Shown piece after piece: positions 31,376 to 34,130 of a stretch of 64,000 nucleotides of DNA. The position numbers and the translations under genes were made by a program. Location of the stretch: the NCBI GenBank assembly GCA_020056225.1, contig JAGVIE010000006.1, forward strand, positions 79,085 through 143,084. The letters run 5' to 3'. The notes below the pieces were generated by a model. It did no database searches. It was given only the letters and a program-made list of their open reading frames with translations, and had not been told where the DNA came from. Position 1 is the stretch's first letter; every line of letters begins with the position of its first letter. Source of the stretch: Bacteroidota bacterium. Its GTDB lineage: Bacteria > Bacteroidota > Ignavibacteria > UBA10030 > SZUA-254.

Positions 31376-31438
31376 TGCCCTGAGTTGACTTTCTCAGTTA
31401 AATGATATTATATTGATAGTAATAAATTGGAGCATCTA

Positions 31439-31711
31439 ATGCCAGTAATAAGACCCATTTCCGATTTGAGGAATAAAGCCAACAAAATCTCGGAGCTTGC
31501 CCACAAATCGGGTGAGCCGATTTTCATCACGAAAAATGGTGAAGGAGATATGGTTGTAATGTCCATGGCTCAATACAGTAAAATACAACTCAAACTTGAT
31601 CTGTTCAGCAAACTTGCAGTCGCCCAAGTTCAGCGTGCGAGCGGCGACAAAGGTCGAAGTTTATCAGCCGTTATGAAAGACATCCGCCGGCGGATACATG
31701 AGTCGGAATAA
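31439..31711 (+). CDS. Phd/YefM-family antitoxin
   Basis: ISDLRNKANKISELAHKSGEPIFITKNGEGDMVVMSMAQY; overlaps toxin ORF. Confidence 0.87.
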   Translation: MPVIRPISDLRNKANKISELAHKSGEPIFITKNGEGDMVVMSMAQYSKIQLKLDLFSKLAVAQVQRASGDKGRSLSAVMKDIRRRIHESE

Positions 31712-32006
31712 GTATACTGTTCGATTTCTCCGGATTGCCGAGGACGATTTTGCGGAAATCATAACTTATATCTCAGCCGACCGTCCATCAGCCGGCGAAG
31801 CCCTTGCCACGAAGATTGAAAAAAACCTTCAACTCTTATCCAAAAATCCACATTTGGGTCGGGTGCCGAAAGAAGATGAGCTTGCTCAACTCCATTATCG
31901 ATACCTCGTTGTGGAGAATTATCTCATCTTTTATACCGTAGAAAGGCAATCGATTTACATTCATCGAATACTCCACGGCGCACGCGACTATCTAAGTTTG
32001 TTCTGA
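31698..32006 (+). CDS. RelE/ParE-family toxin
   Basis: AEDDFAEIITYIS...LGRVPKEDE...YLIFYTVE...IHRILHGARDY. Confidence 0.9.
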   Translation: MSRNKYTVRFLRIAEDDFAEIITYISADRPSAGEALATKIEKNLQLLSKNPHLGRVPKEDELAQLHYRYLVVENYLIFYTVERQSIYIHRILHGARDYLSLF

Positions 32007-32124: not shown

Positions 32125-32159
32125 TTAAAGAACATTTTGGTCAGCCTCGTGGCTCAATG

Positions 32160-32237
32160 CTGCCGAGCGGAGTGTATTTATACCGACTGCAAACCGGAAG
32201 CTTATTGGAGACAAAAAAGTTATTATTGGTGAGATAG
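32160..32237 (+). pseudogene. Orphan remnant of a T9SS C-terminal sorting domain
   Basis: LPSGVYLYRLQTGSLLETKKLLLVR* with no upstream gene; resembles end of 29879..31375. Confidence 0.8.
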
Positions 32238-32314
32238 CGTACGGCAAATGTATTGAGCGAGGCTTTATTCTCACTGGGCTTTATTTTCCAGCGTCGTTAT
32301 TTTGCTTGCTATGC
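32232..32314 (-). other. Degenerate attC-like site downstream of zinc-ribbon gene
   Basis: Internal sequence resembles the 32823..32953 site (AGCGAGGCTTT, GCGTCG, TTTTGC); outer boxes GCATAGC/GCTATCT deviate from consensus. Confidence 0.45.
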
Positions 32315-32332
32315 GAAAATAGATCATCATTA

Positions 32333-32797
32333 TCAATAGAGGTCTTTGCCACAAGCACAGCAATTGTCATCAGATGGATAGTTCATAGTGTAGCAGTGTG
32401 GGCAACGTACATCTCTAAACTGTTGAACCCTTTTTGTCTTTGGTAAAGTGTGTTCAACTTGTTCGGGTGAGGGTGAAGTGCTCTCCGATGTTTTCGTCTC
32501 ATGTGGGCTTTCTAATTCGTCGAAGCGCTTACCACAAAAGCGACAAACCTTTGCTTCGACTTTGATTTCTTCTGCACAGTCAGGACACTTCTTAGTATCT
32601 TTGATTGATGGTATATACGCAGGTTCTTCAACGACTTCTTCTACGAGAAGTGCAGCAATGAATCCAAATACACCGAAGAGAAATCCGATCAAAAACCAAT
32701 CGACTGGATCACGGTTCTTCCGTTTTGCTGCGAGGGAGCTTATTGTCCCAAATGCAGTTCCATATACGACTATGACTGCTATCCAGAAGGCTAACAT
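32333..32797 (-). CDS. Membrane protein with two zinc-ribbon motifs
   Basis: N-terminal TMs; CPDCAEEIKVEAKVCRFC and CPHCYTMNYPSDDNCCAC. Confidence 0.8.
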   Translation of the reverse strand: MLAFWIAVIVVYGTAFGTISSLAAKRKNRDPVDWFLIGFLFGVFGFIAALLVEEVVEEPAYIPSIKDTKKCPDCAEEIKVEAKVCRFCGKRFDELESPHETKTSESTSPSPEQVEHTLPKTKRVQQFRDVRCPHCYTMNYPSDDNCCACGKDLY

Positions 32798-32822
32798 AGA
32801 AATTCTCTTTCGCTTAGTTTTC

Positions 32823-32953
32823 GGCTAACGTCTCGCAAAACATCACAGTATTTTTGTGAACACATAAATCTCATTTGAGCAAACAAAAGATATTAAGCGA
32901 GGCTTTTAAATCTATGGCTTTGCATTCGAGCGTCGGTGTTTTGCGTGTTAAAC
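32823..32953 (-). other. attC-like integron recombination site
   Basis: Minus strand: GTTTAAC-A-CGCAAAACA ... TGTTTTGCG-AGAC-GTTAGCC; R''/R' and L''/L' pairing, 131 bp, between two same-orientation genes. Confidence 0.62.
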
Positions 32954-32970
32954 GCCGGGAGTGGCATCGA

Positions 32971-33663
32971 CTACCTTTTTTCTGGATCGTGTGAATCAGG
33001 ATCAATTCCATGAGTAGTGAACCACCTTAGAACTTCCTCTATTTCGATTTTTCGGAAGTTTGACGCTATTCCTTCAATCATCTTCTTGTAATCGAACTCA
33101 ACGAATGAAACGAGATGATGAACAATAGCGCACGCGGTATTATTGGCCCAACGAATACCTTCTGAGCAACTTAGCTTGTCTGGCCATAGATAATCACTCC
33201 CATCCACTTTGGCACTTGGCGCAACCAGAATGATATCTTTTTGTCCAAGGTCTGCAATATACTTGGGGACGTTGTTTGGCATCTTGTAGTGAATGAGATC
33301 ATTCCTTACTCGGATCAAAAGCATCATGTCTTGATATGGTTGCTCCCCACGTGCAAAGGTTTTCCCGAACAATAATTGTGGAACAAGTACCAGCTTGACG
33401 CTCAATTCAGTTTTTTCAAGCCAATCGTCAGGTAGATTCCACGCGGATGAATTCTTTAATGCGAAACGTGGAAGCATACTCAAAAATGCCTCGTTCATGA
33501 ATGCCTCTACACTTGCAACAGCCATTACATAAGCGGGTAGCCCATCAACAGCTACACCATTGATACCGTGTCGCACTCCTTTCTTGGTTAAAAGGTAGTC
33601 GAGCGATGCAAAGTAGAGACGATGAACGTGACCTATGAAATCACCCGAAACAGTTATTGACAT
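32971..33663 (-). CDS. Hypothetical protein, possible HEPN-like
   Basis: 230 aa ORF; RNDLIH (R-x4-H) in a helical context. Confidence 0.6.
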   Translation of the reverse strand: MSITVSGDFIGHVHRLYFASLDYLLTKKGVRHGINGVAVDGLPAYVMAVASVEAFMNEAFLSMLPRFALKNSSAWNLPDDWLEKTELSVKLVLVPQLLFGKTFARGEQPYQDMMLLIRVRNDLIHYKMPNNVPKYIADLGQKDIILVAPSAKVDGSDYLWPDKLSCSEGIRWANNTACAIVHHLVSFVEFDYKKMIEGIASNFRKIEIEEVLRWFTTHGIDPDSHDPEKR

Positions 33664-34002: not shown

Positions 34003-34130
34003 GTTAGGGGCTGTCAAAAAAGAATCAGTTACTGTCTGCCTGAGCTTGTCGAAGGCTCAATGTCGCTCAATTTCACATTTCGACAAGCTCAATGTGACAC
34101 TCTCTCGGACTTATTAGACAGCCCCTTAAC
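34003..34130. mobile_element. MITE-like element with terminal inverted repeats
   Basis: GTTAGGGGCTGTC ... GACAGCCCCTTAAC; inner GAGCTTGTCGAA/TTCGACAAGCTC. Confidence 0.65.

Follow-up and report, generated by a model that had tools for sequence, protein, structure and literature searches.

A degraded array head in an Ignavibacteria genome probably belongs to a variant integron whose IntI-related integrase lacks I2

The I2 insert of integron integrases is said, from work by Messier and Roy in 2001, to be necessary for IntI activity. The same work is cited for the I2 requirement in PMC4792948, I2 has been described as the innovation enabling integrons, with a 'lack of intermediates' (PMC7790495), and the IntI-specific domain serves as a criterion for finding integrons (PMC9668308). 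At the level of the recombination sites, extrahelical bases are common to known attC sites and the first of them has been called absolutely conserved (PMC2727003), while XerCD, which has no I2, uses a CTXphi stem without extrahelical bases (PMC4792948). No published integron with an I2-less integrase was found in the open-access literature, to which the search was confined.

The window is a stretch of 64,000 nt from a Bacteroidota bacterium (Ignavibacteria; UBA10030; SZUA-254; assembly GCA_020056225.1, contig JAGVIE010000006.1, positions 79,085-143,084, forward strand). A sequence-only reading had proposed an integron-type cassette array on its minus strand. This was right in kind, but the array is not of the canonical type in either its integrase (I2) or its sites (extrahelical bases). 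It is the degraded, integrase-less head of a new integron variant whose activity is inferred. The array occupies 33975-32226 and runs, on the minus strand throughout, from promoter-like sites through an integrase tail and an attI-like site to two cassettes, each with an attC-like site, which confirms the proposed layout of one site after each same-orientation gene.

Cassette 1 (inferred unit, 33695-32829) carries a HEPN-like ORF (33663-32971) with an RNDLIHYK motif; 17 nt separate the ORF from GTTTAAC at 32953. Its attC-like site (site 1, 32958-32818; core 32953-32823) has the inner boxes CGCAAAACA/TGTTTTGCG and ends at 32823 with an R' of GTTAGCC, one position off GTTRRRY, exactly as had been pointed out. 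The bottom strand of this site folds at -41.4 kcal/mol and the top strand at -31.8 kcal/mol. Three relatives at 74-80% DNA identity are present in the same genome, two on contig C33 and one on C52. Cassette 2 (32828-32333) carries an ORF for a zinc-ribbon membrane protein (32797-32333), whose zinc-ribbon family matches fall below cut-off, and is followed by site 2 (32319-32226), with an R''-like GCATAGC at 32314-32308. Site 2 had been read as a decayed likeness of site 1; its left half is indeed alike, and is 85% identical to site A of C33, but the right half is missing altogether: the site is real but truncated, half a site only. Each cassette start resembles the reverse complement of the R'' that belongs to the same cassette, with 12/17 positions matching for cassette 1 (GTTCAGTGCCAGGCGTG) and 9/12 for cassette 2. 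An Rfam scan of the window gave no family match. A YefM/RelE-like toxin-antitoxin pair, recognised by eye, adjoins the array on the opposite strand (31427-32006, plus), and a fragment resembling a T9SS sorting-domain end, also on the other strand (32130-32226), abuts truncated site 2. Upstream, a repeat (GGGGCTGTCTAATAAGTCCGAGAG...) at 34010-34125 recurs at L017:40-160 and so has at least two copies in the genome.

The HEPN-like ORF has no match in Pfam, NCBIfam, PADLOC or PDB. A homolog in genome G003 is 56% identical and keeps the RNDLIHYK motif, and the gene is missing from nearly all of 394 relatives, so that the proposed refutation, synteny showing that both genes are ancestral here, did not come true. 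The G003 homolog is not flanked by sites that match the model, so the mobility of cassette 1 is not shown, and no exchange of this cassette between genomes was seen.

Because nucleotide relatives alone were too divergent, a structure-based covariance model (R1) was built from twenty sites of other genomes, with own-genome sites excluded. This native attC-like model matched both window sites (site 1, 97.1 bits, E=1.8e-24; site 2, 20.2 bits, E=0.0027), thereby satisfying the covariance check that had been proposed for them. In the own genome, 20 sites matched at E<=0.001, including three on C33 (107, 103 and 56 bits) that follow three unrelated genes; contrary to what had been named as a refutation, similar sites adjoin unrelated genes on many other contigs, although some are single and scattered. 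The consensus of the twenty sites contains 29 pairs, 25 with compensatory changes, and the stems show 125 double-change cells against 39±4 in shuffled and 17-36 in slid controls. By this covariation, the criterion that attC folds as a conserved hairpin is met. The third C33 site (L009:10755-10897, 56 bits) has a left half homologous to sequences in G010 and G011 and a right half from another site, and so looks chimeric.

The L stem sets these putative sites apart from those of IntI arrays in the same class, where 6-bp blocks are split by extrahelical bases: the median uninterrupted run is 11 bp as against 6 bp (p=2e-5), with the caveat that the canonical sample was small (10 sites). A bulge count over the first 12 bp, which alignment running into the junction made unreliable, was dropped in favour of the longest uninterrupted run. 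On the predicted pairings, the criterion of extrahelical bases in the L stem is not met. An I2-less enzyme acting on bulge-less stems would fit the logic that I2 reads extrahelical bases, which remains an inference.

It had also been noted that no IntI is present in the window, and a genome-wide search for intI was suggested. The window does lack an integrase gene, but a decayed integrase tail had been overlooked (33815-33742, including sequence 3' of the stop codon), and the genome does encode integrases, an intact one on C59 and a second, 60% identical, on C52, but both are without I2. Both lie at contig ends, so the arrays beside them cannot be read. The IntI-specific insert is missing from these enzymes by alignment, and they match TIGR02249 (NCBIfam) only outside positions ~180-231; among 15 family genomes, only the integrase of G012 scores above the cut-off of this profile. 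The gap from KxKDR to HxxRH is 59-64 aa in the I2-less enzymes compared with 100-105 in IntI. The best PDB sequence match is 2A3V (VchIntIA), split exactly at the I2 position, and a predicted model (pLDDT 79) has 2A3V and then XerA as its best fold matches. By alignment, PDB match and gap length, these enzymes therefore fail the integron criterion of an IntI-specific (I2) domain.

A tree built without the insert columns placed the I2-less array integrases in one clade (99/98), I2-bearing IntI in another (100/100) and Xer in a third (100/100). The I2-less clade branches outside IntI, and these tyrosine recombinases are, by this phylogeny, sisters of IntI that do not group with Xer. Whether they diverged before I2 was gained is indicated but not settled, since the intervening nodes have supports of 93/83 and 96/87 and the branches are long. 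Several families have intact copies in which the catalytic residues are invariant, and some copies (G006, G009) carry stops or frameshifts. In CPR bacteria and one Actinomycetota MAG, I2-less recombinases (L088, L090, L093 and L095) likewise fall next to IntI in the tree, with no convincing arrays beside them; viral contigs yielded distant recombinases only.

The intact C59 integrase gene clarifies the head of the window array. Positions 33815-33742 are 70% identical over 74 bp (E=3e-5) to the last ~45 bp of this gene and ~30 bp beyond, and 33715-33693 are 96% identical to sequence 3' of it. On C59, the stop codon is followed by a perfect 26-bp palindrome, GTAAAAACGCAATATTGCGTTTTTAC, and then AGATG^TT, and the counterpart of 33715-33693 is part of this palindrome. 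The attI-like site of the window (33750-33694; inferred crossover G33696^T33695) has its palindrome broken by a CCCGC..GCGGG hairpin (33735-33717); the genome contains several REP-like hairpins, this one among them. A variant palindrome with compensated arms is present in G011, and many I2-less integrase genes are followed immediately on the 3' side by attI-like sequence, which satisfies the integron criterion of an attI next to the integrase gene, with a degraded copy in the window. The C52 integrase (L011:1-1089, contig start) is accompanied by a different attI-like region with AAACGCAATGCGT-type repeats. The locus had been called a CALIN or a distal piece of an array; it does have two sites and no integrase gene, but it is the proximal, attI end.

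The same unit of integrase tail and attI heads further arrays on C33 (L009:8081-8172), C34 (L213:2154-2235), C52 (L010:10826-10634), C4 (L212:6794-6721), C10 (L216:212-309) and C60 (L208:386-195). Together with window positions 33815-33693, these make seven heads in which only a short integrase tail and attI are kept, and in six of the seven the 5' border of homology clusters within ~16 bp. The unit looks like a defined one rather than the product of random decay. Two promoter-like sites precede the tail in the window as Pc candidates (33975-33948, TTCACA-16-TATAAT; 33915-33887, TTGACA-17-TAAATT), and similar sites precede the heads on C52, C10, C33, C34 and C4. With per-head shuffle fractions of 0.01-0.15, this evidence is only suggestive, and promoter function is inferred.

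Around I2-less integrases more broadly, a hairpin finder detected 41 sites on the downstream side (158 kb searched) but just 2 on the upstream side (227 kb; p=4e-14), and none in shuffled sequence; some contigs appear twice among the loci (e.g. L092 and L067), which slightly inflates the counts on both sides. Cassette starts matched the reverse complement of their own-site R'' at 167 positions, against a permutation mean of 116.5 (sd 6.7; 0/10000), and the longest ORF per cassette is mostly on the array strand. Tandem cassettes, an attC after each gene and the RYYYAAC/GTTRRRY core satisfy a further integron criterion. Since some family genomes had contributed training sites to R1, a survey of 199 genomes of the class, with association assessed by Fisher test, was the cleaner test. 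At least four R1 sites were found in 22/26 genomes that have the I2-less type, in 3/32 that have only I2-bearing IntI and in 7/141 that have neither. On these predictions the sites track the I2-less enzyme and not I2-bearing IntI, despite four of the 26 genomes in which R1 found no site and 10 genomes that have four or more but no strong I2-less match.

Evidence for movement comes from a DUF4386 cassette. The gene on C33 and its counterpart in G010, which belongs to another genus, are 97% identical in protein and 94% in DNA, and the integrases of the two genomes are 78% identical. In G010 the cassette is flanked on both sides by R1 sites, and homology tapers off towards its ends; in G011, where the protein is 88% identical, homology sets in at the R' core. 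Recent movement is suggested by the 94% DNA identity, and site-specific insertion and excision of cassettes is inferred from sequence signatures only.

What remains at the locus is thus very probably the proximal end of an integron-type platform, now degraded, that was run by an I2-less sister of IntI, with catalysis inferred. An I2-less tyrosine recombinase of this clade would have inserted circular gene cassettes at the attI-like site that adjoins its own gene on the 3' side, the substrate being a folded single-stranded attC hairpin recombined at the G^TT / AAC core. In the window, loss of the integrase gene would then have left only its tail, attI would have been interrupted, and the remaining two cassettes and one good site may still be mobilisable in trans by the intact C59 integrase. 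Anatomy, array architecture, cassette signature, covariation, co-occurrence and the absence of I2 are all observed, whereas catalysis, a single-strand substrate, trans activity and promoter function are inferred without biochemical data.

An ordinary CALIN, with canonical attC sites left by an I2-bearing IntI that was lost or acts in trans and with the I2-less recombinases as bystanders, would explain why the RYYYAAC/GTTRRRY cores are identical in type, and I2-bearing IntI is available in 39/199 class genomes, often alongside the I2-less type. The sites, however, lie directly 3' of I2-less genes, their stems differ, R1 gave no convincing match in 14 loci that contain I2-bearing IntI or their arrays, and G012, the one family genome with a true IntI, has no R1 sites. 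Contradicted by co-occurrence in that sites do not track IntI, this explanation is quite unlikely. That other hairpin repeats (REP-like or transposon ends) merely happened to land after genes is far less credible still: the REP-like hairpins of this genome, including that inside attI, and the single, scattered sites speak for it, but not the complementarity of cassette starts to their own R'', a shared cassette with array-specific neighbours, or arrays that start at the integrase, and the permutation and shared-cassette results refute it.

The I2-less integrases might instead be dying IntI that lost I2 secondarily, their arrays being relics. The disrupted copies in G006 and G009 and the heads that retain only a gene tail are what such decay would leave behind, but the 100/100 clade of I2-bearing IntI excludes the I2-less enzymes, intact copies with invariant catalytic residues persist in several families, and two genera share a cassette at 94% DNA identity, so that we regard this as unlikely. 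We lean towards a natural I2-less integron class, widespread in the class, in which an IntI sister predating the gain of I2 recombines bulge-less attC hairpins. For the I2-less system, strand use and the evolutionary order are inferred.

If correct, this class would be the intermediate that links Xer-like recombinases to modern integron integrases, and the origin of single-strand recombination would become testable. A finder that demands the IntI-specific domain would miss I2-less arrays, because their integrase has no I2, and would class even complete ones as CALINs; some CALINs would then belong to integrons whose integrase is missed for want of the I2 region.

Compared with known systems, this one shares with canonical integrons an IntI-related tyrosine recombinase, an attI-like site, tandem cassettes that mostly share one orientation, the RYYYAAC/GTTRRRY core, a folded site with variable terminal structure and the hybrid-site signature. 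We have high confidence that it works like an integron, with recombination activity inferred from sequence alone. It is not a canonical integron, as the I2 and extrahelical-base criteria are both unmet: its integrase has no I2, its L stem is unbulged with a median 11-bp run instead of split 6-bp blocks, its spacers usually measure 1 and 4 nt, several genomes have a palindromic attI, and integrase and array run in the same direction. The CALIN criterion (at least two attC sites, no integrase gene) is met by the window, albeit with a truncated second site, but the window keeps a remnant integrase tail and attI, and the integrase itself is found in relatives. With XerCD/dif, XerH/difH, XerA and CTXphi hairpin integration the system shares the lack of I2 and a palindromic site, and with the CTXphi site a perfectly paired stem (PMC4792948), but its enzymes are closer to IntI and adjoin cassette arrays. 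Archaeal integrons likewise have attI immediately downstream of the integrase gene, but archaeal IntI retains the IntI-specific domain (PMC9668308).
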